Origin: Corallococcus macrosporus
GTDB taxonomy: Bacteria; Myxococcota; Myxococcia; Myxococcales; Myxococcaceae
DNA: 64,000 nucleotides
Assembly (NCBI RefSeq): GCF_017302985.1
Contig: NZ_JAFIMU010000006.1
Coordinates: 310,001 to 374,000 of the forward strand
Direction: 5' to 3'
The position numbers were made by a program, and so were the translations under genes. How positions within the stretch are numbered: the first letter of the stretch is position 1; every line of letters starts with the position of its first letter. Below, in pieces: positions 47,967 to 64,000 of this stretch. A model generated the notes under the pieces. The model made no database searches. It was not told where the DNA came from and saw only the letters and a list, made by a program, of their open reading frames with translations.

Positions 47967-49121
47967 ATGGACTCCCATGAGACCCGGGACGCGATCCGCG
48001 CGTCCGTGCGTGCGCTGTGCAACCGCTTCCCCCCCAAGTACTGGCGGACCCTGGACGCGGAGCGTGAATACCCCCACGACTTCGTGAATGCCCTCACGGA
48101 GGCCGGCCTGCTGGCCGCACTGATTCCCACCGAGTACGGCGGCGCGGGGCTGGGGCTGCGCGAGGCGGCCGTCGTGCTGGGCGAAATCAACCACTTCGGC
48201 GGGAACGCGTCCGCCTGCCATGCGCAGATGTATGTGATGAACGTGCTGCTGCGTCACGGCTCCGTGGAGCAGAAGCAGCGGTACCTGCCGGAGATCGCGG
48301 CCGGGCGTCTGCGGCTCCAGGCCTTCGCGGTAACGGAGCCGAACTCCGGCTCGGACACCACCGCCATCGAGACGACGGCGGTGCGGCACGGCGACCGCTA
48401 CGTCGTGAACGGCCAGAAGATCTTCATCTCGCGCGTGCTCCAGTCCGACCTGATGCTCCTGCTCGCGCGGACGACGCCCCGGGCGGAGGTGCGCAAGAAG
48501 ACGGATGGGCTGAGCGTGTTCCTGCTCGACCTGCGCAAGACGCAGGGGCTGGAGGTCCGGCCCATCCGGACCATGCTCAACCACGCGACGAACGCGCTGT
48601 TCTTCGAGAACGTCGAAGTGCCCGCCGAGGGGCTGATTGGCGAGGAGGGCAAGGGCTTCTCGTACATCCTGGACGGCATGAACGCGGAGCGGGTGCTCGT
48701 CGCCTCGGAGGCCATCGGGGATGGCCGCTGGTTCATCGAGAAGGCCGTCGCGTATGCGCAGGAGCGCGTCGTGTTCGGCAAGCCCATTGGGGCAAACCAG
48801 GGCGTGCAGTTCCCCATCGCGAAGGCGCACACGGCGCTCACCGCCGCGTCGATGCTGACGGAGCAGGCGGCGACGCTCTTCGACAGCCATCAGTCCTGCG
48901 CGGCCGAAGCGAACATGGCGAAGTACCTGGCCGCGGAGGCCGCATGGGAGGCCGCCAACGCCTGCATGGACACCTACGGCGGCTATGGCTTCGCCGAGGA
49001 GTACGACGTGGAGCGCAAGTTCCGCGAGGTGCGCCTGTTCATCAACGCGCCCGTGAGCCGGAACATGGCCCTGTCGTACATCAGCCAGCACGTACTGGGG
49101 TTGCCCCGCTCGTTCACCTAG
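47967..49121 (+). CDS. Acyl-CoA dehydrogenase family protein
   Basis: A 384-aa flavoenzyme. N-terminal helices (ALIPTEYGGAGLGLREAAVVLGEI), the FAD/substrate segment FAVTEPNSGSDTTAIETTA, the strand YVVNGQKIFISRV, and the C-terminal domain NAERVLVASEAIGDGRWFIEKAVAYAQERVVFGKPIGANQGVQF with MDTYGGYGFAEEYDVERKFREVRL. The Glu in AEEYD is the likely catalytic base. It desaturates an acyl-CoA; which chain cannot be told. Monocistronic, followed by a gap with a hairpin before the aldo/keto reductase gene. Confidence 0.92.
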   Translation: MDSHETRDAIRASVRALCNRFPPKYWRTLDAEREYPHDFVNALTEAGLLAALIPTEYGGAGLGLREAAVVLGEINHFGGNASACHAQMYVMNVLLRHGSVEQKQRYLPEIAAGRLRLQAFAVTEPNSGSDTTAIETTAVRHGDRYVVNGQKIFISRVLQSDLMLLLARTTPRAEVRKKTDGLSVFLLDLRKTQGLEVRPIRTMLNHATNALFFENVEVPAEGLIGEEGKGFSYILDGMNAERVLVASEAIGDGRWFIEKAVAYAQERVVFGKPIGANQGVQFPIAKAHTALTAASMLTEQAATLFDSHQSCAAEANMAKYLAAEAAWEAANACMDTYGGYGFAEEYDVERKFREVRLFINAPVSRNMALSYISQHVLGLPRSFT

Positions 49122-49255: not shown

Positions 49256-50281
49256 ATGCGTTATCGGCTGTTCGGCCGTACAGGCCTCTACGTCTCGGAA
49301 CTCTGTTTCGGAGCGATGACATTCGGCGGGAAGGGCTTCTACGAGCCCATTGGCAGGACGGCCCAGGCAGAGGCCGACGAGCTCGTGTCCATCTCGCTCG
49401 AGAACGGCATCAACTTCTTCGACACCGCTGACGTCTACTCCGAGGGCGAGTCCGAGAAGATCCTCGGCAAGGCCCTCGGTGCGCGCCGCAAGGACGTCGT
49501 GCTCGCCACGAAGGTGCGCGGCAAGGTCGGCACGGGTCCAAACCAGCAGGGCCTCTCCCGCGCTCACATCATGAGCTCCATCGAGGGCAGCCTGAAGCGC
49601 CTCGGGACCGACTGGGTCGACCTCTACCAGATTCACGGCTTCGACCCGGTGACGCCCTTCGATGAGACACTGCGCGCACTCGACGACGTTGTCCGTTCCG
49701 GGAAGGTGCGTTACGTCGGCTGCTCGAATCTCGCGGCATGGCAGCTCGCCAAGGCCAATGGCATCGCGGCGCGCCAGGGTTGGGCTCGCTTTGAGTCATT
49801 GCAAGCCCACTACACGATCGCCACCCGCGACCTCGAACGCGAACTCGTGCCTCTGCTGAATGACTCGCAGATGGGGCTCATGGTCTGGAGCCCGCTCTCC
49901 GGGGGCCTGCTGTCCGGGAAATATGGTCGTGACGGCAAGGGCCCTGACGGCTCGCGCCGAGCCAGCTTCGACTTCCCGCCCGTCAACAAGGACCGCGCCT
50001 TCGACTGCATCGACGTGATGCGGAAGATTGGCGACGCCAAGGGTACGGGCGTCGCATGCGTCGCGCTTGCGTGGCTGCTCGCGAAGCCCCACGTCTCCGC
50101 GATCATTGTCGGCGCGAAGAACGAGGCGCAGCTCCGGGACAACCTGAAGGCGAGCGACTTCGTGCTCGACCCCGCCGAGGTCACCGAGCTCGACAAGGTG
50201 AGCGCACTGCCCGCCGAATACCCGGGCTGGATGATCGAGTTCCTGGGCAACCTCGGCAGAGCGCCGAAGAACGCTCGCTAA
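49256..50281 (+). CDS. Aldo/keto reductase
   Basis: A 341-aa NADPH-dependent oxidoreductase with the TIM-barrel tetrad: Asp/Tyr in FFDTADVYSEGESE, Lys in VVLATKVRGK and His in LYQIHGFDPV. The remaining signature MRYRLFGRTGLYVSELCFGAMTFGG is of the AKR11/12-like branch (YajO/Tas type). Cofactor loop IVGAKNEAQLRDNL near the C-terminus. ATG at 49256 has AGGAGA upstream; that site is inside a hairpin. Followed 10-20 bp later by a second AKR gene and an HTH regulator, so an operon of carbonyl-reducing enzymes is likely. Confidence 0.92.
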   Translation: MRYRLFGRTGLYVSELCFGAMTFGGKGFYEPIGRTAQAEADELVSISLENGINFFDTADVYSEGESEKILGKALGARRKDVVLATKVRGKVGTGPNQQGLSRAHIMSSIEGSLKRLGTDWVDLYQIHGFDPVTPFDETLRALDDVVRSGKVRYVGCSNLAAWQLAKANGIAARQGWARFESLQAHYTIATRDLERELVPLLNDSQMGLMVWSPLSGGLLSGKYGRDGKGPDGSRRASFDFPPVNKDRAFDCIDVMRKIGDAKGTGVACVALAWLLAKPHVSAIIVGAKNEAQLRDNLKASDFVLDPAEVTELDKVSALPAEYPGWMIEFLGNLGRAPKNAR

Positions 50282-51295
<1,014 letters not shown>

Positions 51296-51338
51296 CTCTC
51301 TGAGGGGCGCGAGCGACCGGGACGTTATACTGCGGCCC

Positions 51339-52166
51339 GTGACCGCCGCTTCCCTGTCGTCTCCGCGCTCCGAGCTTGGGCACTTTCTCCGGACCCGCCG
51401 GGCGCGGCTGCGACCGTCCGACGTGGGGCTGCCCGAGGGTGGGCGGCGGCGCACGCCGGGGCTGCGGCGCGAGGAGGTCGCGCAGCTCGCCGACGTGGGG
51501 GCGAGCTGGTACACGTGGCTCGAGCAGGGGCGCGACATCCAGGTTTCGGAAGCGGTGCTCGAGCGACTTTCGAGCGCGCTGCGCCTCGATGCGGCGGAAC
51601 GTTCGTACCTGTTCGAGCTTGCCCAAGGTCGCTCGCCCCGTCCGCTTGCCGCGACGCCGCCGATCGTGAGCCCCCTGCTCGCGGGCACGATCGAGGCGCA
51701 TCGTCATCCGGCGACTGTCTCGACCCTGCGCTGGGACGTCGTCGCGATGAACGGGCCCGCGCTGAAGCTCTGGGGTGATCTGCGTGGCACGAATGCCCTG
51801 CGGAATCTCTTCCTCGGCAAGGGACCGCCGCTCGTCACGGTGGAGCGCGAGGCACACGCACGAAACCTCGTTGCGCGCTTTCGCTCGGAAGCCGCACGCG
51901 CGAGTGCCCACGAGCAGTTCCAGGAGCTTGCGGACGAACTGCTGGCAAAGAGCCCCGAGTTCCGCCGGCTCTGGACGCAGCATGACCTGGATGCCGAGCC
52001 CGAGGGCACGAAGGTCGTCGACATCCCCGGAACCGGCCGCATCGAGCTCGCGCACGTGACGCTGATGCACATCGAGCCGGACGCACGTACGCTTCGAGTC
52101 CTCTTCTATTCTCCCGTCGGCCCCGAGAGCGCGCAGCGAATGGCGCGTGCTCTCGCGGAACGTTGA
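51339..52166 (+). CDS. Helix-turn-helix regulator with MmyB-like ligand-binding domain
   Basis: A 275-aa transcription factor. N-terminal XRE-type HTH with the family pattern LGHFLRTRRARLRP...RRRTPGLRREEVAQLADVGASWYTWLEQGRDIQVSEAVLERL (about 10-75). The remainder is the MmyB-like domain, which in known structures binds a fatty acid (WDVVAMNGPALKLWGDL, LFLGKGPPLVTVEREAHARNLVARFRSEAAR and IEPDARTLRVLFYSP). Such regulators are often beside short-chain or aldo/keto reductases, as here. GTG at 51339 is chosen; TTATACT at 51325-51331 could be a -10 element. Converges on the MDR gene. Confidence 0.88.
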   Translation: MTAASLSSPRSELGHFLRTRRARLRPSDVGLPEGGRRRTPGLRREEVAQLADVGASWYTWLEQGRDIQVSEAVLERLSSALRLDAAERSYLFELAQGRSPRPLAATPPIVSPLLAGTIEAHRHPATVSTLRWDVVAMNGPALKLWGDLRGTNALRNLFLGKGPPLVTVEREAHARNLVARFRSEAARASAHEQFQELADELLAKSPEFRRLWTQHDLDAEPEGTKVVDIPGTGRIELAHVTLMHIEPDARTLRVLFYSPVGPESAQRMARALAER

Positions 52167-52180
52167 AAGCAAGAAGACCG

Positions 52181-53191
52181 TCAGGCGCTCCTGGCTGCGG
52201 GCGGCGCCTCCCGGCCCTCGCGGACGTGGACCACCACCTTCCCAATGGCTCGCCGCTCCGCGAGGGTGCGCAGTCCTTCGGCGGTCGCTTCCAGGGGGAG
52301 CCGGAGGGTGATGCGCGGGAGGATGCGGCCCTGCGCGTACCAGGCGAAGAGCTGATCCATGGTTTCGCGCAGCGCGGCCGGGTCGTGGTAGCGGAAGTAG
52401 CGCAGCGACGAGCCCAGCACCGCGCGGTGCTTCACGAGCAGCCGGTGGGCGGGGATGCTCGGAGCCTGTCCCGCGGCGAAGCCCACGAGGACGTAGCGGC
52501 CCCCCCAGCCCAGCGTCGAGAGCGCCGGGTCGAAGAGCGGTCCGCCGACCGGATCCACGCAGACGTTCACGCCCGCTGAACCCGACTCAGAGAGGACCTG
52601 CTCCTTCCAGGCCGCGTCAGCGGAGCAGATGACCCGGTCCGCTCCGGCTTCGCGCGCGATGGCGAGCTTGTCCGGGGTGCTCGCGACCGCGATGACCGTG
52701 GCGCCCAGCGCCTTGCCCAGCTGCACCGCCGCGAGCCCCACGCCTCCGCTCGCTCCGAGCACGAGGAGCACCTCCGAAGGCTTCAGGTGGGCGACGCGGA
52801 TCAGTGCCAGCGCGGTGCTCACGTAGGCGCTGGTCAACGCCGCGGCGACGTCGAAGGAGACTCCCGCCGGCAGCAGGAACGTCTCCTGGGCGGAGGCCAC
52901 GGCCTGCTCGGCGTAGCCTCCGTGCCAGAGGATGGCCACGACCCGGTCCCCGGTCTTGAAGCCCGAGCCCTCCGGGGCGCTAGCGATGGTCCCCGCGGCC
53001 TCCAGCCCCGGAACGAAGGGCAGCTCGGGCCGGGTCTGATAGGTCCCGCCGATCATGAGGAGGTCGGCGAAGTTCACGCTGCACGCATGCACGTCGATGC
53101 TCACCTCGCCGGGCTTCGGAACAGGCTCGGGGACATTCGTGAGGGTGAGTTGCTCGGGTCCGCCCCACCTCCCACAGACCATTGCTCGCAC
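52181..53191 (-). CDS. MDR-family NADPH:quinone oxidoreductase/enoyl reductase
   Basis: A 336-aa medium-chain reductase without the zinc ligands of alcohol dehydrogenases. N-terminal MRAMVCGRWGGPEQLTLTNVPEPVPKPGEV, the NADPH-binding LVLGASGGVGLAAVQLGKALGA, and FVPGLEAAGTI are present. Quinone oxidoreductases and enoyl reductases of secondary metabolism share this layout. It is the last gene of the minus-strand operon after the AKR gene (1 bp between stop and GTG start), so reduction of a product of the cluster is inferred, for instance an enoyl intermediate. Converges on the HTH regulator. Confidence 0.9.
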   Translation of the reverse strand: MRAMVCGRWGGPEQLTLTNVPEPVPKPGEVSIDVHACSVNFADLLMIGGTYQTRPELPFVPGLEAAGTIASAPEGSGFKTGDRVVAILWHGGYAEQAVASAQETFLLPAGVSFDVAAALTSAYVSTALALIRVAHLKPSEVLLVLGASGGVGLAAVQLGKALGATVIAVASTPDKLAIAREAGADRVICSADAAWKEQVLSESGSAGVNVCVDPVGGPLFDPALSTLGWGGRYVLVGFAAGQAPSIPAHRLLVKHRAVLGSSLRYFRYHDPAALRETMDQLFAWYAQGRILPRITLRLPLEATAEGLRTLAERRAIGKVVVHVREGREAPPAARSA

Positions 53192-53192
53192 G

Positions 53193-54158
53193 TCATCGCT
53201 CCTGGGTGGAAGTGAGGCTTCGCCAGAGGTCTTCGTTCGCGGGCAGGCTCAGTGCCTCCGACACCAACTGCTCGAGCTGCTCCGGGCTGCGCGCGCCAAC
53301 GAGGATCGACGTCACGAAGGGGCAGTGCACCAGCCACCAGGTGGCGACGCCGGAGGGTGACAGCGCGTGGGCGGAGGCCAGGGCCTTCAAGTGTTCGACC
53401 CGGGCCGCGTTCTCCGGGGTCCAGGCCTTCGCGTAGAGGTCCCGGCGCTGTCCGATGCGCGTGCCCTCAGGAATCTCCCCCGCCATGGCGTACCTGCCGC
53501 TCAGCAGGCCGCCCGCCAGCGGTGAATAGGGCGTGTACTGAAGCCCCAGTTTCGCGCAGGCCTCCAGCACACCGTTCCGCGCGTCGTCCTGTTCGAGCAG
53601 GTTGAAGCGGTTCTGGACCCAGCCGAAGCCCACCGGGCCTCCAGCGCGTGGAGCTGCACAGCGCCAGAGGTCGCCTGCGGCGACGTTCGACAAGCCGAAA
53701 CGGCGGACCTTCCCTGCCCTCACGAGTGACTGGAAGGTTTCGAGGACATCGTCCCAAGGCGTCGCGGGATCGGGCACGTGCGACAGGTAGAAGTCGAGCG
53801 TGTCGATGCGAAGACGCGCGAGCGAGCGGTCCACCTCCGCGAACACATGCTTCCGTCCGAGCCCACCGCGAAGGCCCACCTTGGACGAGATGAGCACCCG
53901 GTCCCGCATCGCGGCGCCGCGCGAGGCCAACCAGGCGCCGATGATGGCTTCGCTGGCACCGTCCGCGTAGGTGCCTGCCGTGTCGATGATGTTGATCCCC
54001 AGCGCCACAGCGCGATCCAGGAGCGCATGGGCTTCGGCTTCGGTCTCTCCCTGGCCGAGCAGCTTCCGGGAGCTGCCGATGCCGCCGAAGTTCGCTGCCC
54101 CCAGGGCGAAGACCGACACGTTGATGCCACCAAGCTTGCGGTAGATCACGTCCGCCAC
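53193..54158 (-). CDS. Aldo/keto reductase of the biosynthetic cluster
   Basis: A 321-aa AKR. Tetrad residues in INIIDTAGTYADGASE (Asp, Tyr), VLISSKVGLRGG (Lys) and DFYLSHVPDP (His). NADP loop SILVGARSPEQLEQLV. The GTG at 54158 gives VADVIYRKLGGINVSVFALG, the normal N-terminus; the longer frame to 54194 adds a Pro/Gly leader. The start lies inside the last codons of the hotdog gene (13-nt overlap), which indicates translational coupling. A keto group on a polyketide-like chain is a plausible substrate, by context. Confidence 0.9.
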   Translation of the reverse strand: MADVIYRKLGGINVSVFALGAANFGGIGSSRKLLGQGETEAEAHALLDRAVALGINIIDTAGTYADGASEAIIGAWLASRGAAMRDRVLISSKVGLRGGLGRKHVFAEVDRSLARLRIDTLDFYLSHVPDPATPWDDVLETFQSLVRAGKVRRFGLSNVAAGDLWRCAAPRAGGPVGFGWVQNRFNLLEQDDARNGVLEACAKLGLQYTPYSPLAGGLLSGRYAMAGEIPEGTRIGQRRDLYAKAWTPENAARVEHLKALASAHALSPSGVATWWLVHCPFVTSILVGARSPEQLEQLVSEALSLPANEDLWRSLTSTQER

Positions 54159-54661
54159 GCCTCCGGGAACGGCAACGCAAGGTCGCCCTCCCATGCACCC
54201 GAGGAACCGATCAACGTGAAGTGCGCCGTGTAGGTCGCTGCGGGCTCGCCCTGGTCGATGAAGACCTGCGACGTGGCCGTGAGCCGCACCTTGCCTCCCT
54301 GGCGAAGCGTGTCGGCCTCCAGCGGGGGCAACGCGTCACACCTAGCCCGGTAGTCGCACGCGATGGGCCGGTGGATGGCGAACTCACAGCGACGCAGCAG
54401 GATCTGCACGGCGATTCGCTCTGCCCAAGCCGCTCGCACGAGCAGCAGCCAGGGAGCGAGCCCCGCCGAAGTGAACACACCCGGGCCGAACGCCGTCCCC
54501 CGGTGGTTCAAGGAAGGGCCCAGCGGCGCCACAAGCACGATGCGGCCGGGCTCGAACTCCTCGAAGCGGATCCCCAGGAACTTCGTCATGGGAATGCGTT
54601 CATGAAGATCCCTCGCCAGATGCGCGAGCACGTCCTCTCGGTCATCGGGTTGGATGTTCAT
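54146..54661 (-). CDS. Hotdog-fold thioesterase (YiiD C-terminal domain type)
   Basis: A 171-aa protein with the layout of the YiiD_C/PaaI-like hotdog fold: IPMTKFLGIRFEEFEPGRIVLVAPLGPSLNHRGTAFGPGVFTSAGLAPWLLLVRAAWAER, where NHxGTxFGxxxx is the conserved active-site segment, then strands KVRLTATSQVFIDQGEPAATYTAHFTLI. Stand-alone proteins of this class hydrolyse acyl thioesters. The ATG overlaps the stop of the ketosynthase gene (ATGA) and its end overlaps the AKR start. Likely releases or edits the acyl chain made by the KS protein. Confidence 0.85.
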   Translation of the reverse strand: MNIQPDDREDVLAHLARDLHERIPMTKFLGIRFEEFEPGRIVLVAPLGPSLNHRGTAFGPGVFTSAGLAPWLLLVRAAWAERIAVQILLRRCEFAIHRPIACDYRARCDALPPLEADTLRQGGKVRLTATSQVFIDQGEPAATYTAHFTLIGSSGAWEGDLALPFPEAWRT

Positions 54662-57435
54662 GGCGCCGCCACCTGAAGGTCGGGGCCGGCCTCGATCACG
54701 ACGTGGTAGTGGTTGCCTCCGCTTCCCGCCGCGTTGACTGCCGCGAAGCGCGCATCCTTCAGACCCTGCGACTCCATGATGACGCGCAGGTTGTCGGCTG
54801 CTCCTACGAGCGGTGCCGTCACGCCCACTGTCGCGGGGACCTCCTTCGCGGCCAATGTGAACAGTGCCTTCATCAGGCTCGCGGCTCCCGCTGCCGCTCC
54901 GGTGTGACCGATGTTCGGCATGACCGAGCCGATGGGGAGTGCCCGGGCTCTCGCGGTGGCGAGTGTCCTTCCCAGGGCGGCCAACTCTCCCTGGTCGCTG
55001 GCGGGATGGCCACTGCCGAAGCACTCCACGAAGGCGAGCGCGTCCGCGGGCACGTCACACCGTGACCATGCTCGCCGGATGGCCAGGCTCATCGCGGGTT
55101 CAGAGACGAGGCCGTGGTCCTGGGGCGTTCCGAACGCGCTCCCGATCGCTCGAATGATCCCGAGCACCGGCTCGCCACGCTCCTGTGCGTCCGACAGGCG
55201 CCGCAGCAGGCACACCGTGGCGCCTTCTCCGGGCAGATAGCCGTCAGAGGACGCGTCGAACGCGGTTGGCGTCTCCCGGCGGGACAGCAGCCCCAGCGTG
55301 CCTTCGTCCGCCATGCGCGTCACTCCGAGCCGCATGTCCGCCGTCGCCCAGAAGACCGCGTCGGCTTCTCTCGATGCCAGCCGGCCGCAGGCGACCTCCA
55401 GTCCTCCCATGGAGGCCGCCGCGCCTCCCGCCTCGATGGCGCAGGTCGGTCCGGTCAGATCGAAGGCCCGGGCGATCCTCGCCGCCATGAAGCTGGGCGA
55501 CAGGTTGAAGAGGCTTCCGGCCCACAGCTCCGGCAGGTCTCCAGACAGGCGCTTCACCGCCGCTCGCACCGTGCGGGCCACGCCCTTGGGGTCCTTGCCC
55601 GTCTCGCGCAGCACTCGCTGGAGGTGCTCTTCAATTTCCGGCAGTCGCGCCGCGGCGACCTGATGCAGGCCGTACTCGGTGCAGTGCTCCGCGGAGACAA
55701 CCACCGGGATGTTGCTTCCCCGTTCGATGGCGACCTTCGAGGCCGCGCTCCGCGCCAGGTCCACCAGCAGGTAGTGGAGCGGATCATGCCGGACGATGTC
55801 GGCGGGCCGCTCGTCGTACTGGCTGGCGCTTCCGGTGAACCGGTGTGCCTCCAGGTCCATCGGCGCTCCCAGCCCGAACGGCAACCTCCGGAACGCCCGG
55901 CGGCCCTGGAGCAGGTTCTTCCACAGCGTCCCGAGGTCCGGGGCGTCCGCGAACGCTCCCGCCATGCCCACGATGGCGATGGGCTCGTCCGTCCTCGCGG
56001 GGCACTTTCGCGCGCCTCGCAGCAGCGCCTGGGCCCGCGCGGGTGACGGCCGGTCCTCCACCACCGCGTGGTAGTTCTGGCCTCCGCTCGCGATGGCGCT
56101 GACGCCTCCGATGCGCGGCTGCTCGCCCGCCGGCCAGGACCGGGCCGTCTTCTCGACCTCGATGAGACCTCCGGGTTCGAGCAGGCTCCTCGGCTTGTCC
56201 CCGTGCACCGGTCCCGGAATGCCCCCGGACTCGAACATGGCGAGCAGCGCGATCAGGTTCGCCAGCCCCGACGCCTCCTTCGCATGTCCCAGGTTCCCCT
56301 TGATGGACATGACGGGCACCGGCGACCCGGGTTGGGCCGCTTCACCGTGCGCCTTCAGGGCCCGGTCGAAGACCTTCGCCTCCACCGCGTCACCCGCGCG
56401 TGTCCCCGTGCCATGCGCGATGATCACGCCCAGCTCCCGGGGCGCCACGCCTGCCTGCTCGAGCGCTCGCCGCACCGCCAGCTCGTGGCCGCGCGGGTTC
56501 GGGACCAGCATGTAGCCTTCGGCCGCGCCGTCGTTCGCTCCGCCGACGCCACGGATCACCCCGTGGATGGGAAGCCGCTCCTGGGTGGCCCGCTCCAGGC
56601 TCGTGAGCACCAGCAGCACCACGCCGTCGGAGATGACCGTCCCGTTGCCCTTCTGCGCGAACGGGAAGCAGCCCTCGGACGACAGGAGGCGTGAGTTCGA
56701 ATAGAGGACCTGGTTGACCGTGTCGACGTAGGACAGCGCGCCCGCGATGGCCCACGGGGCGCCCTTCGCCAGCTCCCGCGCCGCCAGTTCAATGGCGGCC
56801 AGACCGCCGGTGCAGTTCCCGTCCACCAGCATCGCCTTCTCCGTGGTCCCCAATGCCTCCGCGATGGCGCTTGCCAGGCGGTGCGTGGCGCGCTCCCTCG
56901 GGTCCTCCACGAAGTCCGGCCCGAACGACTCCCGGAGCGACTGGCGCACCTTCCGGGTGAGGTCCGTCAGCTCCTGATGGGAGAACTCGTTCGGATGCGC
57001 GCCGTGCACCAGGTACGGCTGGAGCTGCCCCGCCACCGCCAGCACCGCGGCGTCATAGAGCCCGTGCCCCCCCCCGCGTGAGTGCGCGAGGAAGACCGGA
57101 ACGGGCTGCCCGCCCAGCGCGCCGGGAGCCAGTCCCGCCGAGGCCAGGGCCCGGTGCGCAGTCTCCACCACCCACCCGTGTGGAACCTTCGCATCCGGCA
57201 GCTCGCGAGCGCCCACGACTCCACCCAGCAGCGTGGACGTCCGCGCCGCGCCCACGGCCGCAGAGGGGTCCAGATACAGGGCCCGGGAAATGCGCTCCTC
57301 GGGCCATTGGCCATACGTGGTCTTTCCCCCGTGCAGCACTTCCGCCAGTTCATCGAGTGTGCGAGCGCCCGGCAAGGCAAACGCAAAGCCAGAGATCGCA
57401 ACGGGCGCGATCCCATCCAGATGTCCCTTCAGCAT
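54658..57435 (-). CDS. Two-domain ketosynthase: active KS fused to a degenerate KS (KS-CLF-like)
   Basis: A 925-aa protein of two tandem beta-ketoacyl synthase domains with no AT, ACP or KR domain. KS1 (about 1-470): VDGNCTGG with Cys208, AHGTGTRAGD with His341, and KGNLGHAKEASG with His384, so Cys-His-His is complete. KS2 (about 480-925): the active-site position in GPTCAIEAGGAAAS is Gly671, the first His in ECFGSG is Phe806, and only His844 in NIGHT remains. A working KS next to a dead KS copy is the plan of KS-CLF units in type II PKS and in PUFA synthase PfaC. Chain extension with a carrier protein encoded elsewhere is inferred. Start ATG 57435; no strong ribosome site. Confidence 0.88.
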   Translation of the reverse strand: MLKGHLDGIAPVAISGFAFALPGARTLDELAEVLHGGKTTYGQWPEERISRALYLDPSAAVGAARTSTLLGGVVGARELPDAKVPHGWVVETAHRALASAGLAPGALGGQPVPVFLAHSRGGGHGLYDAAVLAVAGQLQPYLVHGAHPNEFSHQELTDLTRKVRQSLRESFGPDFVEDPRERATHRLASAIAEALGTTEKAMLVDGNCTGGLAAIELAARELAKGAPWAIAGALSYVDTVNQVLYSNSRLLSSEGCFPFAQKGNGTVISDGVVLLVLTSLERATQERLPIHGVIRGVGGANDGAAEGYMLVPNPRGHELAVRRALEQAGVAPRELGVIIAHGTGTRAGDAVEAKVFDRALKAHGEAAQPGSPVPVMSIKGNLGHAKEASGLANLIALLAMFESGGIPGPVHGDKPRSLLEPGGLIEVEKTARSWPAGEQPRIGGVSAIASGGQNYHAVVEDRPSPARAQALLRGARKCPARTDEPIAIVGMAGAFADAPDLGTLWKNLLQGRRAFRRLPFGLGAPMDLEAHRFTGSASQYDERPADIVRHDPLHYLLVDLARSAASKVAIERGSNIPVVVSAEHCTEYGLHQVAAARLPEIEEHLQRVLRETGKDPKGVARTVRAAVKRLSGDLPELWAGSLFNLSPSFMAARIARAFDLTGPTCAIEAGGAAASMGGLEVACGRLASREADAVFWATADMRLGVTRMADEGTLGLLSRRETPTAFDASSDGYLPGEGATVCLLRRLSDAQERGEPVLGIIRAIGSAFGTPQDHGLVSEPAMSLAIRRAWSRCDVPADALAFVECFGSGHPASDQGELAALGRTLATARARALPIGSVMPNIGHTGAAAGAASLMKALFTLAAKEVPATVGVTAPLVGAADNLRVIMESQGLKDARFAAVNAAGSGGNHYHVVIEAGPDLQVAAP

Positions 57436-57776
57436 TGCCAGACAAAATAGGGATCCGATCCGGACACGTCCACGACCAGCCAAATCACATACATCCCTGC
57501 CGACATGCGAAGGCGTCAGCAGGATCCTACCCGACGTATTCGAGGGGTTGCCCTCAAGGAGCCCCGTTGCCCTCCTGGGAGCGTCGTTCCAGGGCCTTGG
57601 GACGGGTGATAGGATTTCAAGCTGCGCGCTCCATCCCGAGTCCCAAAGGCTGTCTTTTCGATCAAAACCAGGGTGGATTGACGCCAGACTTTCCGATCAG
57701 TATATCAACACAGACATCGCGGCTTTGGCCTATCCACTGGCTGCCGCCCCATTCCCCCTCATCCCCTGGACAGCCC
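57436..57776. other. 341-bp divergent promoter region of the biosynthetic cluster
   Basis: Separates the two arms of the cluster. The right-facing promoter at 57678-57706 is described separately. I see no equally good promoter for the left arm and no operator-like palindrome. AT content rises here compared with the genes. Confidence 0.65.
57678..57706 (+). promoter_or_regulatory. Sigma-70-type promoter of the right arm
   Basis: TTGACG (57678-57683), 17-bp spacer, TATATC (57701-57706). Five of six and four to five of six positions match consensus and the spacing is optimal. It predicts a start of transcription near 57713 and a leader of about 64 nt before the ATG at 57777. Confidence 0.72.
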
Positions 57777-58691
57777 ATGAAAAGACTCGATCCGAGCCGT
57801 ATCAAGGATTCGTTCATCAACGTCTCCACCTTCCCGGCGGAGCTGGGTGAAGGCCGCTCGGCTGCTCCCGACGCCGCGCTGCTCGACGCCGTGGTGGAGG
57901 CCGTCGAGAAGAAGAACGGGTTCGCGGTGGTGTACGGCGTGAACAAGCTGCTCGCGGCGCGCGGGCTGGACCTCCATACGGAGTCCGGCGCCGCGCTGGC
58001 CCGGGACTACCTGGAGGGCATCTTCCGGGCCATCGCGCCGCGCTTCGACCTGAAGCGCTACAGCCCCACGCCCGTCGCCTACGACCGCGTCGCCAAGATG
58101 GACGTGGACGGCTTCAACAAGAACCGCAACTTCACGCCCAACAGCGACCACACGGAGAGCCGCGAGTTCGTCACCACGAAGTGCGTCCACTTCGACTCGG
58201 CGACGCCGTTCATCGCGAACCTCTACGGCCCCAACCAGAACATCAGCGGCGGCATGCCGATGATCTGCGACACGCGCCGGTTCTGCCAGGACAAGGGCCT
58301 GGATCCCCGAGAGCTCATCGAGAACATCCCCAACAACTACAACGTCGCGGTGAAGGCGGAGTTCTCCGAGGAGATCCTTCGCGACTACTCGTTCGCGCTG
58401 AAGCTCGACCTGGAGAACGACATCGTGATGATCGTCCTCCACAACGAGGTGGTGGGCGGACTCGCCCATGCCGCCACCCAGCCGTCCCTCACCGACGCGA
58501 GCAAGGCCGCGAAGCGCCCCATCCGCCACGTCGAGTACCAGGTCGCGGGCTCCGACGACCTCAAGCGCTGGTACGACTACTACGGCCTCTCCCTGGAGAA
58601 GGCGACGAACCACAAGGAGGACGCCAACATCACCCGCTTCGTCCGCGGCGAGCTCGCCCCCTACCCGAACATCATCGAGGTGCGGGCATGA
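57777..58691 (+). CDS. Possible Fe(II)/2OG-type oxygenase, first gene of right arm
   Basis: A 304-aa cytoplasmic protein not confidently assigned to a family. SDHTESREF (His125, Glu127) looks like the HxE metal motif of the clavaminate synthase/AsnO/VioC group of 2-oxoglutarate oxygenases, followed by GPNQNISGGMPMICD, a Gly-Gly strand region like theirs. LHNEVVGGLAH (His222, His231) and RPIRHVEYQV (His251) offer possible third ligands and an Arg for 2OG, in a plausible order. These oxygenases hydroxylate amino acids. The ATG lies 71 bp after the promoter -10, and the stop overlaps the next start (ATGA). Confidence 0.72.
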   Translation: MKRLDPSRIKDSFINVSTFPAELGEGRSAAPDAALLDAVVEAVEKKNGFAVVYGVNKLLAARGLDLHTESGAALARDYLEGIFRAIAPRFDLKRYSPTPVAYDRVAKMDVDGFNKNRNFTPNSDHTESREFVTTKCVHFDSATPFIANLYGPNQNISGGMPMICDTRRFCQDKGLDPRELIENIPNNYNVAVKAEFSEEILRDYSFALKLDLENDIVMIVLHNEVVGGLAHAATQPSLTDASKAAKRPIRHVEYQVAGSDDLKRWYDYYGLSLEKATNHKEDANITRFVRGELAPYPNIIEVRA

Positions 58692-59599
58692 CCACGCGAC
58701 AGCACGCGGAGCGCAACGCGGCGGAGATGAAGGACCTGCTCGCGTACCTGGACGCCCGGCCCTGGCCGGACGGCTACGAGGCGGCGCGGGTCCACTACGA
58801 TTCGCTCGGGCTGCCCATCGCCAGGGACATCGGCGTGGAGCCCGTCAACGTGAACGGCGTCCGCGCCCAGTGGCTCACGCCGCCGGAGTGCGAGCAGGAC
58901 CGCGCCCTGCTCTTCCTGCACGGCGGCGGGTTCGTCTTCGGCTCGCTGGTGAGCCACGGCCACATGGCCGCGGAGATGGCGCGGCAGGCGCGCTGCCGGG
59001 TGCTCCAGCTCGACTACCGCCGGGCCCCGGAGCACCCCTACCCGGCCGCGCTGGACGACGCGACCACCGCGTACCGCTGGCTGCTGGAGCGCGGGTTCGC
59101 GCCCGGCCGCATCTCCATCGCGGGTGACTCGGCGGGCGGCGGCCTGGTGGTCTCCATGCAGGTCAACGCCCGGGCCAAGGGGCTGCCGCTCGCGGGCGCC
59201 CTGGTGTGCATCTCGTCGTGGTTCAACCTGGGCATCCAGGGGGAGAGCTACCAGTCGCGTGAGAAGGCAGACGCGCTGGTGCAGCGCAAGGTGGTGGAGG
59301 AGGTCGCGCGGCACTACCTCAACGGGCAGGACCCGCGGCAGCCCACCATCTCTCCCATCCACGCGGACCTCACCGGCCTGCCGCCCCTGCTCATCCAGGT
59401 GGGCGAGCGGGAGCTGCTCTTCAGCGACTCGCAGGCGATGGCGAAGAAGGCCCAGGCCCAGGGCGTGGACGTCACGTTCGAGGAGTGGCCCGACATGGTC
59501 CACGTCTGGCACCTGCACTTCAACCGACTGTCCAGCGGCCGTGAGGCCCTGCAGCGCATTGGCCAGTTCGTGATGGACAAGACAGGAGCGCGGAAGTGA
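58688..59599 (+). CDS. HSL-family alpha/beta hydrolase
   Basis: A 303-aa esterase/amidase of the hormone-sensitive-lipase group. HGGGFVFGS at 78-86 forms the oxyanion hole, GDSAGGG at 146-152 holds the nucleophile Ser148, and MVHVWHLHF near the C-terminus has the catalytic His. The acid in the VGERELLFSDS region appears as Glu or the following Asp, so it should be checked. It hydrolyses esters or amides of a small substrate, or removes a protecting acyl group. Coupled to the flanking genes: ATGA overlap upstream and GTGA overlap downstream. Confidence 0.88.
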   Translation: MTTRQHAERNAAEMKDLLAYLDARPWPDGYEAARVHYDSLGLPIARDIGVEPVNVNGVRAQWLTPPECEQDRALLFLHGGGFVFGSLVSHGHMAAEMARQARCRVLQLDYRRAPEHPYPAALDDATTAYRWLLERGFAPGRISIAGDSAGGGLVVSMQVNARAKGLPLAGALVCISSWFNLGIQGESYQSREKADALVQRKVVEEVARHYLNGQDPRQPTISPIHADLTGLPPLLIQVGERELLFSDSQAMAKKAQAQGVDVTFEEWPDMVHVWHLHFNRLSSGREALQRIGQFVMDKTGARK

Positions 59600-60825
59600 C
59601 GACGCCCAGCGACGCGGTGATGGGTCCCCACCTGCACCGCAACAACCAGAAGATGATCCCCGCCAGCGAGAGCGCCTGGGCCGTGGCCCGCGACTCGCAC
59701 ATGCTCAACATCCGCGTGGAGGCCGTGCGCGGCCAGAACCACTTTCGCGAGGTGGACACCGGGCACGAGTTCGCCAACCTGTGCTCCTGCTCCTACCTGG
59801 GGCTCAACAGCCACCCGGACGTCATCCAGGGCGGCATCGACGCGCTCAGGAACGCGGGCATCACCGGCCTGTCCATGGCGGAGTTCCGCATCCGGCTGGG
59901 CCTGATGGAGCAACTGGAGGAGCAGCTGGCGGACCTCTTCGGTGGGCCCGTGCTGCCCGCCGTCACGTCCAGCGCGCTCACGGCCGCCATCCTCCCGGTG
60001 CTGGGGTCCGGCCACCTGACGGACAGCGGGCCGCTGGCGATGGTGTTCGACAAGTTCGCGCACTTCTCCATGGCGTTCGTGAAGCCCATCGTCGCCGACG
60101 AGACGCTGGTGCTGAACGCTCCGCACAACGACATGAACTACCTGGAGGACGTCTGCCGGAAGTACCCGCGCGTGGCGTACGTCTGCGACGGCGTCTACTC
60201 CACCGGCGGCGCGACGGACCTCCCCGCGCTGCTCACGCTCCAGGAGAAGTACGGCCTCTTCCTCTACATCGACGACTCGCACTCGCTCTCCACGCAGGGC
60301 AGGAACGGCGAGGGCTACATCCGCTCGCGGCTGCGCGAGATGAACGACCGGACAGTCATCATCGCCTCCATCGCCAAGGCGTTCGGCAGCACGGGCGGCA
60401 TCGCGATGTTCGGGTCGCGCAAGCACTACGACTTCCTCTACCGGACGGGCCCCATGGGCTGGTCCCAGAGCCTGCGGACGGCGGCCATCGGCACCTCCAT
60501 GGGGAGCATCAAGGTGCACCGCAGCCCGGAGCTGGCGAAGCGGCAGGAACAGCTGCGCCGGAACATCGCGCTGTTCGATGAGCACATCCAGACCGCGCAG
60601 CGCGGCGACGGGCTGCACATCAAGGTCGTGGAGGTGGGCGAACAGGAAAAGGCCGTGAAGCTGTCGCGCGAGCTCTACAAGCGCGGCTTCTACACCTCCG
60701 CGGTCTTCTTCCCCATCGTGCCGGTGGGCAAGGCGGGCATCCGGCTCATGCTGCGCGGCGACCTGCCCACGGAGATGGTGCAGGCGTTCATCGGCCACCT
60801 GAAGGAAGTCCTCCCGACGCTGTAG
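59596..60825 (+). CDS. Alpha-oxoamine synthase (PLP-dependent, AONS/SPT-like)
   Basis: A 409-aa enzyme of fold-type I that joins an acyl-CoA or acyl-ACP to an amino acid with loss of CO2. SCSYLGLNSHPDV near 64-76, GLSMAEFRIR, DGVYSTGG at 198-205, IDDSHS at 225-230 with Asp226 and His229, and SIAKAFGSTGG with the PLP Lys261 fit the family. The family normally has a Gly-rich acyl loop near residue 85-100. It also resembles CqsA-type and prodiginine enzymes. GTG start overlapping the hydrolase stop. Inside the cluster it is the logical bridge between the KS-made acyl chain and an amino acid. Confidence 0.87.
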   Translation: MTTPSDAVMGPHLHRNNQKMIPASESAWAVARDSHMLNIRVEAVRGQNHFREVDTGHEFANLCSCSYLGLNSHPDVIQGGIDALRNAGITGLSMAEFRIRLGLMEQLEEQLADLFGGPVLPAVTSSALTAAILPVLGSGHLTDSGPLAMVFDKFAHFSMAFVKPIVADETLVLNAPHNDMNYLEDVCRKYPRVAYVCDGVYSTGGATDLPALLTLQEKYGLFLYIDDSHSLSTQGRNGEGYIRSRLREMNDRTVIIASIAKAFGSTGGIAMFGSRKHYDFLYRTGPMGWSQSLRTAAIGTSMGSIKVHRSPELAKRQEQLRRNIALFDEHIQTAQRGDGLHIKVVEVGEQEKAVKLSRELYKRGFYTSAVFFPIVPVGKAGIRLMLRGDLPTEMVQAFIGHLKEVLPTL

Positions 60826-60840
60826 CTGGAGGAGCGCGCG

Positions 60841-61767
60841 ATGGCTGCCTTCCTGCCCCACGACGTCGTCTCCGCGCACGGGAACCTGCAACGGCTCGTG
60901 CGCGAGCTGGAGGCGGCGCTCACGGAGGGCCTGCATGAGCGCGTGCAGGTCCCGCTGCGCGTCGCCGTCCCCTCCGCCACCCGGCACGCCGCGTTCGTGT
61001 CGATGCCGGCCGTGTCGGAGCACCTGGGCCTCTACATCAACAAGGTCGCGACCCTGTTCGAGCGGGCCGCGACGGAGCCGCTGCCCACCATGAACGGCGT
61101 GGTGGCGGCGTTCTCCACGCGCACGGGGGAGCTGCTCGCGCTGCTGGATGGCGCGGCGGTGACGGAGCTCAAGTGCGCCGCCGTGTCCGCGCTCGTCACC
61201 GACCTCTGCGCGCGCACGGATGCGCGGACGCTGGCGGTGGCGGGGGCTGGCGCGCAGGCCCGTCAGCAGGTGGCGGCGGTCCGCGCGGTCCGCCCCATCC
61301 AGGAGGTGCGGGTCTGGGCGCGCAACACGGCCCGGCGCGGCGCGTTCGCGGCGGAGCTGCGCGCATCGCTGGGCGTGGCGGTGCACGTCGTCGCCTGCGC
61401 CTCGCTGGATGAAGCCATCCGGGGCGCGGACGTGATTGGCACCGCCACGTCATCGAAGAAACCGCTGGGGAGCTTCGAGGGCCTTACCCCCAGCGTGCAC
61501 ATCAACTGCATGGGTGGACACACCGTGGAGACGCGGGAGGTGCCGCTCGAACTGCTGCGCTCATCGACGGTCATCGTCGAGGACCTGGCCACGGCGCTCG
61601 CGGAGGCCGGGCCGGTCCACGAGAGCGCCATCACCCTGGGGCAGCTCGTGCGCAGGGACAGCGGCCCCCTGCGTGCGGGCCGCACCGTCTTCAGCTCCAC
61701 GGGCCATGCGTTCCTCGACGTCCTCACGGTCGCGCACGTGCTGCGCGAGCTGGAACTGATTCATTGA
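60841..61767 (+). CDS. Ornithine cyclodeaminase/mu-crystallin family protein
   Basis: A 308-aa NAD(P)-dependent enzyme. The mu-crystallin pattern is visible: an N-terminal substrate domain with LYINKVATLFERAATEPLPTMNG and LLALLDGAAVTELKCAAVSALVTDLCARTD, and the Rossmann segment LAVAGAGAQARQQVAAVRAV. VIGTATSSKKP is the usual end of the fold. Members deaminate ornithine to proline or reduce imines (for example in N-alkyl amino acid or diaminopropionate synthesis). Here an imine reductase acting after the oxoamine synthase is possible. GGAGGAG lies 9 nt ahead of the ATG. Confidence 0.88.
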   Translation: MAAFLPHDVVSAHGNLQRLVRELEAALTEGLHERVQVPLRVAVPSATRHAAFVSMPAVSEHLGLYINKVATLFERAATEPLPTMNGVVAAFSTRTGELLALLDGAAVTELKCAAVSALVTDLCARTDARTLAVAGAGAQARQQVAAVRAVRPIQEVRVWARNTARRGAFAAELRASLGVAVHVVACASLDEAIRGADVIGTATSSKKPLGSFEGLTPSVHINCMGGHTVETREVPLELLRSSTVIVEDLATALAEAGPVHESAITLGQLVRRDSGPLRAGRTVFSSTGHAFLDVLTVAHVLRELELIH

Positions 61768-61781
61768 ACCTGGAGGAGCAC

Positions 61782-62753
61782 ATGATGAAGGAGTTGCCCC
61801 GAATCGATTTGACGTCCGCGACGCCAGGGTCCGAAGCCGAGCGCCGGGCGGCGTTCGAGATCGACCGGGCCTGCAAGCAGGTGGGCTTCTTCACCCTGAG
61901 CGGCCACGGCATCGCGCCGGCCGTCTTCGAAGACGTCTATGCCCTGTCACGGGCCTTCTTCCGCCAGCCGCTGGAGGCGAAGAACCGCTGCCGGTTGCAG
62001 TCCGGCTTCACCATGGCCGCGGACGACTACACGCCCTACGGCTACAGCGGCATGCTGGAGGAGAACGCCTTCGCGTACATGGGCCGCAAGGGGTTGCCCA
62101 GCGACTACGTGGAGAAGTTCAGCGTGGGCCGGCTCATCGAGGACGACAGTGCGAGCCTGCCGTTCAGCGCGGACGCGGAAGGACAGAGGCTGCGCTCGGC
62201 GCTCAAGGCGTACTTCCGCGAGTGCGAGGCGCTGACGTCCCGGCTCACGGAGCTGTTCAGCATCGCGCTGGACCTGCCCCGGGACTTCTTCGCGAAGAAG
62301 ACGTCCGCGTCCAACGACTCGCTCCGCTCCCTGCTCTATCCCCAGCTCAGCCCGGAGCTCGTCAACGATCAGGGCATGGGCGAGCACACGGACGGGACGC
62401 TGCTGACGGTCCTGGCGCAGACAGGCCCCGGCATCCAGGTGAAGGAGCGCGGGGGCACGTGGATCACCCCCACGCTGGAGCGGCGCGACCACCTCATCGT
62501 CAACATCGGAGACCTGATGGCCCGGTGGGCCAACGACGAATACGTCTCCACCCCGCACCGGGTCGTGCTGCACGGTGGCGAGCGCCAGTCCCTGGCGTTC
62601 TTCAAGCTCGCCAACGACGACGCGCTCATCGAGTGCTTCCCCAAGTTCTGCAAGGACACGCCCGCGAAGTACGAGCCCGTCGTCTACAAGGCCTTCTCCC
62701 TCCAGAAGATGAACGCGCTGTTCGGTGTCGGCGGCGACGCCGGACGCTCCTGA
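61782..62753 (+). CDS. Isopenicillin-N-synthase-like Fe(II) dioxygenase
   Basis: A 323-aa protein of the 2OG/Fe(II) superfamily, DIOX_N plus 2OG-FeII_Oxy domains. N-terminal DIOX_N segment: RACKQVGFFTLSGHGIAP. Metal ligands: MGEHTDGTLLTVL with His202 and Asp204, and TPHRV with His259; GERQSLAFF with Arg268 and Ser270 is the 2OG-binding RxS motif. All four are intact. These enzymes hydroxylate, desaturate or cyclise. GGAGGAG at 61772-61778 sets the start at 61782 or 61785; a TTG at 61764 is also open. Directly between the OCD-like gene and the ATP-grasp-like gene. Confidence 0.9.
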   Translation: MMKELPRIDLTSATPGSEAERRAAFEIDRACKQVGFFTLSGHGIAPAVFEDVYALSRAFFRQPLEAKNRCRLQSGFTMAADDYTPYGYSGMLEENAFAYMGRKGLPSDYVEKFSVGRLIEDDSASLPFSADAEGQRLRSALKAYFRECEALTSRLTELFSIALDLPRDFFAKKTSASNDSLRSLLYPQLSPELVNDQGMGEHTDGTLLTVLAQTGPGIQVKERGGTWITPTLERRDHLIVNIGDLMARWANDEYVSTPHRVVLHGGERQSLAFFKLANDDALIECFPKFCKDTPAKYEPVVYKAFSLQKMNALFGVGGDAGRS

Positions 62754-62761
62754 GGCCACCC

Positions 62762-64000
62762 ATGATCGGTGAATTCAACGAAGCGTTCCTCGCCGCCCTG
62801 GAAGAGGGGTGGACGCCCGCGCGTGACGCCACGGCGCAGGCGAGCACGATCGCGGCGATCCACGACCTGGACTCGCCCATGTACGAGAAGAGCCAGTTCG
62901 CGCACCCGCTCCTCTTCAGCCAGGCGGAGTTCGTGGAGCTGAGCCAGGCGTGCCGCGCCCTGCTCTCCGCGCAGCTGAAGCTGATCCACCACCTCATCGG
63001 CACGCGTTCGCGGGAGGGGCTGCTCGACCTGCTGCGGATGCCCCGGCACCTCGCGCGCTTCATCCACTGGGACAACCTTCGCCACGGCGACGCGACGATT
63101 GGCCGCATGGACATCGTGCCCACGCGGCAGGGGTACTTCTTCTGCGAGTTCAACATCTTCCCCGGCGTGGGCGGCGGTGAAGCCTACGAAGGCTCGCGCG
63201 CGGCCACCGAGGCGCTGGGTTTTCCCCGCGCCGGGTTGATGGGCAGTCCCCTGCGGGACCTCGCGCTGCTGTACGCGGAGGAGTGCCGGAAGCGGGAGCT
63301 GCGCCGGGTGGTGATCCTCGATTCGCGGGGGCACTCGGGCCTGGGCTACCCGCGCCAGGAGTACCTGAAGCGTTACCTCGAGGAGCTGAACCCGGGCGTG
63401 CCGGTCCACATCCTCGACGAGGTGAGCTACCCGGAGGCCTGGCTGAAGCGGGATGAGGCGGAGCGCACGCTCATCCACCGCATGTTCACCTACGAGGAGG
63501 TCACGGATCACTTCGTGTTCCTGGAGAAGCTCTGGGCGAGCGGCGCGGTGCTCACCAACGGCTTCGAACCGGAGCTGCGGATGAGCAAGCGATTCCTCGC
63601 GCTGCTGTGCGAGCCGGGCCATCAGGCGCTGTTCAGCGAGGACGAGGTGTCCGCCATCCGGAAGTACCTTCCGCCTGCCTTCTCGCTGTCGGAGGAGAAC
63701 CTGGCGGGCGCGCTGCGCGACAAGGCCGGGCTCGTCTTCAAGATCGACGACAGCAGCTCCTACGGCGGCAGCGGTGTGCTGATGGGGACGGACTGGTCCC
63801 CAGAGGAGCTGGAGCGGAAGCTGCGCGAGCCGGGCGTCGAGCGGTGGATCTGCCAGCGCGTCGTGGAGGCGGAGACCGTCCGGCTGCGCGCGGGCGGTGA
63901 CTCAGCCCCGGAGGAGTACCGGCTGGTGCTGGGCTTCTACTCCTACGGCGGCAGGACGAACGGCTTCCTGGTGCGCGGCAGCCGCACTTCCAAGGTGGTG
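62762..64000 (+). CDS. Possible circularly permuted ATP-grasp ligase, partial
   Basis: 413 residues are visible and the gene runs off the right edge. No family is certain. FFCEFNIFPGVGGGEAYEGSR (about 129-149) looks like the metal-binding strand of ATP-grasp enzymes, and VFKIDDSSSYGGSGVLMG (about 324-341) like a flexible Gly-rich ATP loop; ERWICQRVVEAETV (about 360-373) and RLVLGFYSYGGRTNGFLVRGSRTSK follow. These resemble circularly permuted ATP-grasp proteins such as glutathionylspermidine-synthase-like ligases, which make amide bonds. In the cluster it would attach an amino acid or amine to the acyl product. The start ATG at 62762 is 9 bp after the dioxygenase stop. Confidence 0.72.
   Translation, partial: MIGEFNEAFLAALEEGWTPARDATAQASTIAAIHDLDSPMYEKSQFAHPLLFSQAEFVELSQACRALLSAQLKLIHHLIGTRSREGLLDLLRMPRHLARFIHWDNLRHGDATIGRMDIVPTRQGYFFCEFNIFPGVGGGEAYEGSRAATEALGFPRAGLMGSPLRDLALLYAEECRKRELRRVVILDSRGHSGLGYPRQEYLKRYLEELNPGVPVHILDEVSYPEAWLKRDEAERTLIHRMFTYEEVTDHFVFLEKLWASGAVLTNGFEPELRMSKRFLALLCEPGHQALFSEDEVSAIRKYLPPAFSLSEENLAGALRDKAGLVFKIDDSSSYGGSGVLMGTDWSPEELERKLREPGVERWICQRVVEAETVRLRAGGDSAPEEYRLVLGFYSYGGRTNGFLVRGSRTSKVV

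Follow-up and report, generated by a model that had tools for sequence, protein, structure and literature searches.

The window analyzed here is a stretch of 64,000 nucleotides, bases 310001-374000 of a contig in a 9.8 Mb Corallococcus genome, and our analysis was extended to window coordinate 82000. Toward its right end begins a unit of eleven genes, arranged in two operons that diverge from 57436-57776, the right one of which passes the window end and stops at 65302. We interpret this unit, with moderate confidence, as a natural-product pathway that is independent of non-ribosomal peptide synthetases (NRPSs) and is built on a carbon-carbon bond, in which an arm headed by a fused ketosynthase and chain-length-factor protein (KS-CLF) would feed an alpha-oxoamine synthase (AOS) in the opposite arm. 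From left to right, the unit comprises:

MDR, 52181..53191, minus strand: PIG3-like medium-chain enoyl/quinone reductase at the left edge of the unit (Pfam ADH_N/ADH_zinc_N; TIGR02824 below cutoff).
AKR, 53193..54194, minus strand: aldo/keto reductase (Pfam Aldo_ket_red, 5e-56).
TE, 54146..54661, minus strand: hotdog thioesterase of the YiiD_C family (Pfam YiiD_C, 6e-19), overlapping the KS stop codon.
KS-CLF fusion, 54658..57435, minus strand: first ketosynthase with Cys-His-His, second without Cys.
Divergent intergenic promoter region, 57436..57776: conserved among strains only in part.
Ox1, 57777..58691, plus strand: orphan protein, putative 2-oxoglutarate (2OG)-Fe(II) oxygenase by motif only (H138-x-D140, H231 and R247 invariant).
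HSL, 58688..59599, plus strand: hormone-sensitive-lipase-type alpha/beta hydrolase (Pfam Abhydrolase_3, 1e-58; GDSAGG and HGGG motifs).
AOS, 59596..60825, plus strand: pyridoxal phosphate (PLP)-dependent alpha-oxoamine synthase of the NF005697/PRK07505 subfamily (477 bits against a cutoff of 342).
OCD, 60841..61767, plus strand: NAD(P)H enzyme of the ornithine cyclodeaminase/mu-crystallin family (Pfam, 6e-45).
Ox2, 61764..62753, plus strand: isopenicillin N synthase (IPNS)-like 2OG-Fe(II) oxygenase with a complete HxD...H...RxS (Pfam DIOX_N and 2OG-FeII_Oxy).
ATPg1, 62762..64117 (window part to 64000), plus strand: probable, possibly circularly permuted ATP-grasp enzyme.
LAL, 64121-65302, outside the window, plus strand: ATP-grasp L-amino-acid ligase and last gene of the cluster (Pfam ATP-grasp_4 and LAL_C2; PDB 3vot, BacD).

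All nine genes that lie wholly inside the window are present, and scans with Pfam and NCBIfam assigned a family to each of them except Ox1. An earlier sequence-only reading had described two operons diverging from the same intergenic region, with the genes of the left arm overlapping or 1 bp apart; the genes and this spacing (KS and TE overlapping, AKR and MDR 1 bp apart) are as it described, and so are its families, namely a KS-CLF-like double ketosynthase, a hotdog thioesterase, an AKR and an MDR on the left, and HSL, AOS, OCD and an IPNS-like dioxygenase on the right. Its advice to look beyond 64 kb proved useful: the gene that it took for a possible ATP-grasp ligase, ATPg1, ends at 64117, and the cluster continues to a second, unambiguous ATP-grasp ligase, LAL.

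A tree of AOSs places the Corallococcus enzyme as the sister of that from a Burkholderiales metagenome-assembled genome (MAG; support 0.995), and this pair groups (0.999) with AOSs of a Myxococcus/Archangium/Corallococcus type, of which the genus names are tentative except for Corallococcus. Every member of the latter group for which the neighborhood was examined has HpcH, MaoC and MDR genes adjacent to it, and the lineage thereby appears to be linked to an acyl supply of the ketomemicin type, in which an HpcH/HpaI aldolase takes part. No HpcH/HpaI protein (PF03328) scored above cutoff in this genome (G000) or in that of a relative (G018; 10,080,619 bp), the sole match in G000 reaching 21 bits against a cutoff of 25. 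Three MaoC queries found no homologue in the 37 kb region to which that search was confined within the genome, and no amidinotransferase (KtmE) was found among the cluster genes, all of which were scanned with Pfam. Considering that the AOS clade is aldolase-linked and that no above-cutoff aldolase was found here, we read the KS-CLF arm as a replacement acyl source. The economical reading would be that Corallococcus retained the AOS core, lacks the aldolase pathway and relies on the KS-CLF arm in its place.

The first domain of the KS-CLF protein keeps Cys, His and His. The second is without the Cys in each of the ten genomes that were aligned, and we therefore consider the protein a fused KS-CLF; its start is best set at 57435, since a stop codon lies just upstream of that ATG in three relatives. 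The nearest relatives of this protein (31-34% identity) are the tandem-KS portions of multidomain synthases from other Myxococcota, which also hold an acyltransferase (AT) domain and, in most cases, an acyl carrier protein (ACP), ketoreductase (KR) or dehydratase (DH) domain, whereas the Corallococcus KS-CLF stands alone, without AT, ACP, KR or DH domains. Since its nearest relatives belong to these large synthases, it would appear to be a stripped form of one, which must borrow a carrier protein. The sequence-only reading had noted that no AT or carrier protein was visible; indeed, Pfam detected neither a PP-binding nor an AT domain in those cluster genes that were scanned, and no ACP motif was found across 37 kb. 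The junction between KS and TE varies among strains, with an overlap in the window and gaps of differing length, up to ~400 bp, in some relatives; in one of the genomes (G019), a 101-bp tandem repeat of about four copies lies between the two genes (L032:14381-14797).

The right arm has a wider distribution. Its core (Ox1, HSL, AOS, OCD and Ox2) occurs in two Pseudomonadota genomes without KS-CLF, beside an HpcH/HpaI aldolase and a MaoC dehydratase. In the Burkholderiales MAG the genes are ordered Ox2-HpcH-MaoC-Ox1-AOS-HSL-OCD-MFS, with Ox1 and AOS 46% and 71% identical to their Corallococcus counterparts; in the second genome the order is AOS-Ox1-desaturase-ATPg1-MatE-MaoC-M24-Ox2-HpcH-HMGL-HSL-OCD-MFS, with identities of 42% for Ox1 and 34% for ATPg1. 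Rhizobium lusitanum has a smaller set, AOS-HpcH-MaoC-OCD, with an ATPg1 homologue ~13 kb away. Judged by these gene contents, the unit is composite, or modular, in that the right-arm core exists independently of the KS arm, and the recurrence of this core in two unrelated Proteobacteria suggests an undescribed family of natural products.

Catalytic motifs of several of these enzymes can be followed across three lineages: the GDSAGG and HGGG motifs of HSL, the HxD...H...RxS motif of Ox2 and the catalytic motifs of AOS, whose PLP-lysine motif here is SIAKAFGSTGG, are all kept. The OCD loop, DGAAVTELKC in this genome, takes the form DGAAxTxxKC in the three core lineages, as opposed to DGAHLTAVRT in the Rhizobium copy. 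LAL scores above the Pfam cutoff for both ATP-grasp_4 and LAL_C2, and its relatives among solved structures include dipeptide ligases (3vot, BacD). For Ox1, which had earlier been called a possible 2OG oxygenase, the HxD...H...R pattern is invariant across three lineages; Pfam, NCBIfam and PDB gave no match, comparison of its profile with 20 TauD proteins gave none either, and its predicted structure (pLDDT 46, from a shallow alignment) was too poor for a fold search. We therefore retain it as a putative 2OG-Fe(II) oxygenase by its invariant motif only. Its named relatives are from Corallococcus exercitus, interemptor, carmarthensis and sicarius, and searches of plasmids with two Ox1 copies found nothing. 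ATPg1 likewise matches no Pfam family at the usual threshold, and its predicted structure (pLDDT 43, again from a shallow alignment) was too poor for a fold search; its distant Rhizobium homologue matches ATP-grasp families exclusively, in weak, sub-threshold hits (E 0.02-0.23), and on these matches ATPg1 is probably an ATP-grasp enzyme.

Within Corallococcus, the complete eleven-gene unit is found in identical order in 10 of 16 genomes. KS-CLF (E < 1e-100) occurs in 10 of 96 Myxococcaceae genomes, all of them Corallococcus, a close AOS (87-100% identity) in exactly those ten, and Ox1 in the same ten carriers out of 195 Myxococcota genomes; no orthologue of KS-CLF or Ox1 was found outside them among the Myxococcota searched (the 96 and 195 genomes, respectively). 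Co-conservation of the two arms across relatives had been set beforehand as a test, and both arms are present in ten out of ten carriers, never apart, even though these include a deep split at ~75% identity. The trees of the left and right arms give similar strain groups. In every gene, the ratio of nonsynonymous to synonymous substitution rates (dN/dS) lies between 0.07 and 0.49 among the orthologues compared, and by this measure all cluster genes are under purifying selection. Shared inheritance of both arms is thus supported by the genomes compared, and linkage alone could yield it.

Nine relatives have sequence in common with this genome from MDR through the LAL stop codon, and in all nine the similarity stops at ~65295-65367; in two of them, a gap is followed by renewed similarity at a gene for thymidylate kinase. 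On the left, synteny with relatives resumes at 52198-52218. The trio at 49256-52166, made up of an Xre-family regulator gene and two more genes for AKRs, is an insertion, in place only here and in G020 among the relatives compared; in the others, an acyl-CoA dehydrogenase gene is joined directly to MDR, without the trio. This acyl-CoA dehydrogenase (48117-49121 in the window) is present in exactly the ten cluster-bearing Corallococcus, adjoins either MDR or the inserted trio in the relatives read, and may be a twelfth member of the cluster or merely a linked neighbor.

Taken as one pathway, these genes suggest the following scheme, in which the substrates, the order of steps, the supply of AOS by the KS arm and the class of product are what we infer. 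KS-CLF, together with AKR, MDR and the hotdog thioesterase, would build an acyl thioester or acid of short or medium chain length, using malonyl-ACP borrowed from fatty-acid synthesis. AOS would couple the thioester to an alpha-amino acid in a decarboxylative condensation, giving an alpha-aminoketone, a carbon-linked unit as in ketomethylene pseudopeptides. The OCD-family enzyme may then reduce an imine or ketone of this unit, Ox2 and probably Ox1 would oxidize it, and HSL would hydrolyze an ester or amide. Finally, LAL and probably ATPg1 would attach amino acids through amide bonds. The sequence-only reading had proposed much the same succession of acyl chain building, condensation, reduction, oxidation and ligation as the work of a single unit: the logic still fits, and LAL strengthens the ligation step, but the unit is composite and its core occurs without the KS arm elsewhere. 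Nothing was found in support of the lipid-like metabolite that it expected, and a peptide-like product is at least as likely.

Several observations weigh against this scheme. Neither a carrier protein nor an AT, a dehydratase or a starter ligase is encoded in the cluster, and the KS arm therefore depends on partners elsewhere; the assignments of Ox1 and ATPg1 are weak, and the pathway as a whole is a prediction from sequence. The two arms also differ in their GC content at third codon positions, which is lower on the left (0.82-0.89 versus 0.91-0.97), and the synonymous divergence of the left arm is about twice that of the right, both values shifting at the divergent promoter; possibly the two arms came together on separate occasions. 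Comparison of empty sites showed that the left flank, too, is absent from cluster-free genomes, so that co-conservation is partly explained by linkage; linkage could indeed account for it altogether, considering that the adjacent acyl-CoA dehydrogenase has the same 10/16 pattern.

These same observations give some weight to the main competitor of the single pathway, namely that two independent pathways are neighbors here, the KS-CLF/TE/AKR/MDR operon making a polyketide or acid that has nothing to do with the AOS arm, which would draw its acyl-CoA from primary metabolism. The occurrence of the right-arm core in two further lineages that lack the KS arm, the step in base composition and synonymous divergence at the promoter, and the conserved acyl-CoA dehydrogenase of the same distribution that the left arm adjoins would all be expected under this arrangement. 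We nevertheless consider it a minority possibility, if a serious one: the arms are together in all ten carriers, across the ~75% identity split, their strain groupings are similar, and the aldolase/dehydratase supply that accompanies the sister AOS was not found here, a gap that the KS arm would fill. Much less probable is a true ketomemicin/arphamenine-type cluster for a ketomethylene pseudopeptide, with its aldolase and dehydratase elsewhere in the genome. The six ketomemicin genes encode an aldolase, an AOS, a dehydratase, an ATP-grasp ligase, an amidinotransferase and a dehydrogenase (PMC11943689). In the clade of the Corallococcus AOS, most other members have aldolase and MaoC genes as neighbors, and an ATP-grasp ligase (LAL) and MDR parallel the ketomemicin ligase and dehydrogenase. 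Of the remaining features, however, neither the HpcH/HpaI aldolase (KtmA), nor MaoC (KtmC), nor the amidinotransferase was found in the scopes searched, and two putative oxygenases, OCD, HSL and the KS-CLF arm are additions foreign to the ketomemicin genes; the missing aldolase already disfavors this reading.

Two further possibilities were considered and rejected. AOS enzymes of the CAI-1/LAI-1 and sphingolipid pathways use acyl thioesters, and the KS arm could supply one, from which this AOS might make an aminoketone signal or a sphingolipid-like lipid. We regard this as very improbable: the AOS reaches just 46 bits with CqsA and ~50 with serine palmitoyltransferase, compared with 286 bits for its best PDB match, Alb29 (8xha), and ligases, OCD and oxygenases are ill-suited to such lipids. 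A pathway to a cyclopentanoid beta-amino acid of the cispentacin type was raised by the match of the KS to NF058662 AmcF (3.6e-53), and the KS-CYF proteins of the cispentacin and coronafacic acid pathways are alike in pairing a KS with a catalytically inactive partner. However, the match reaches 181 bits against a cutoff of 325, the Corallococcus KS and partner are fused, and the family-defining ACP (AmcB) and adenylating 2-oxoglutarate ligase (AmcH) are absent from the cluster, which leaves this option next to no probability.

We therefore return to the single pathway, and compare it with described systems. By its gene content, the cluster would be a variant of NRPS-independent pseudopeptide biosynthesis outside the ketomemicin family: it shares with the ketomemicin (ktmA-F) and arphamenine systems a stand-alone PLP-dependent acyltransferase (AOS), a C-C linked pseudopeptide, here predicted, ATP-grasp ligation and the lack of an NRPS. 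Alb29, the AOS of known structure closest to that of Corallococcus, belongs to the albogrisin pathway and is reported to accept L-glutamate and several acyl-CoAs (PMC11906848). In dynaplanin biosynthesis (DynZ/DynY), a KtmB-like AOS builds a peptide-like product, and just two genes, one of them for a GNAT acetyltransferase, are essential in a heterologous host; unlike in Corallococcus, no KS-CLF, OCD or 2OG oxygenases are described in the parts of that report available to us (PMC9239090). The sequence-only reading knew of no described cluster with this combination. We found no paper describing it in the open-access literature, which does not show that the cluster is unpublished, and a keyword check of two Corallococcus genome papers found no mention of it; given the core in two Pseudomonadota and the AOS lineage linked to ketomemicin-type acyl supply, it is not entirely unprecedented.

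More tentatively, the five-gene core of AOS, OCD, Ox1, Ox2 and HSL could define a new family of NRPS-independent pseudopeptide pathways with interchangeable acyl modules, Proteobacteria using aldolase with MaoC and Corallococcus a stripped KS-CLF. Ox1 would then represent a new family of enzymes, and M24 (aminopeptidase P-like) peptidases might be the targets of the Proteobacterial products. If so, Myxococcota and Pseudomonadota would share one AOS chemistry but differ in their tailoring sets, the acyl-building module would be exchangeable, and Ox1 would be an orphan enzyme that awaits a function. M24 peptidase genes lie beside or inside both Proteobacterial clusters (L066:15824-17608, L087:10882-12720 and L086:4204-5442), the two larger proteins being 26% identical over 590 residues, and we saw no such gene in the Corallococcus cluster. 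Arphamenines are inhibitors of aminopeptidase B (PMC11943689); by analogy, this gene neighborhood gives a hint, and only that, of the M24 peptidase as a possible target or means of self-resistance.

AOS genes of this kind were also seen in other settings. Cores of AOS, HpcH and MaoC, in most cases accompanied by MDR, are widespread among Myxococcaceae (L042, L047 and L050; relatives L040-L046 and L048), several of them adjoining NRPS, KS and ACP genes; from their gene content, they look like undescribed ketomethylene-type clusters. The AOS-HpcH-MaoC-OCD genes of Rhizobium lusitanum lie on p_1, a 2.4 Mb symbiont plasmid (L081:8811-19249), with genes for a carbamoyltransferase, an HMGL-like aldolase and an acetaldehyde dehydrogenase. 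Conjugative plasmids of Agrobacterium and Rhizobium (L088, L089 and L090) carry a related AOS gene (40-43% identity) near response-regulator or autoinducer-binding genes, and these neighbors suggest a signaling role for the AOS on such plasmids.

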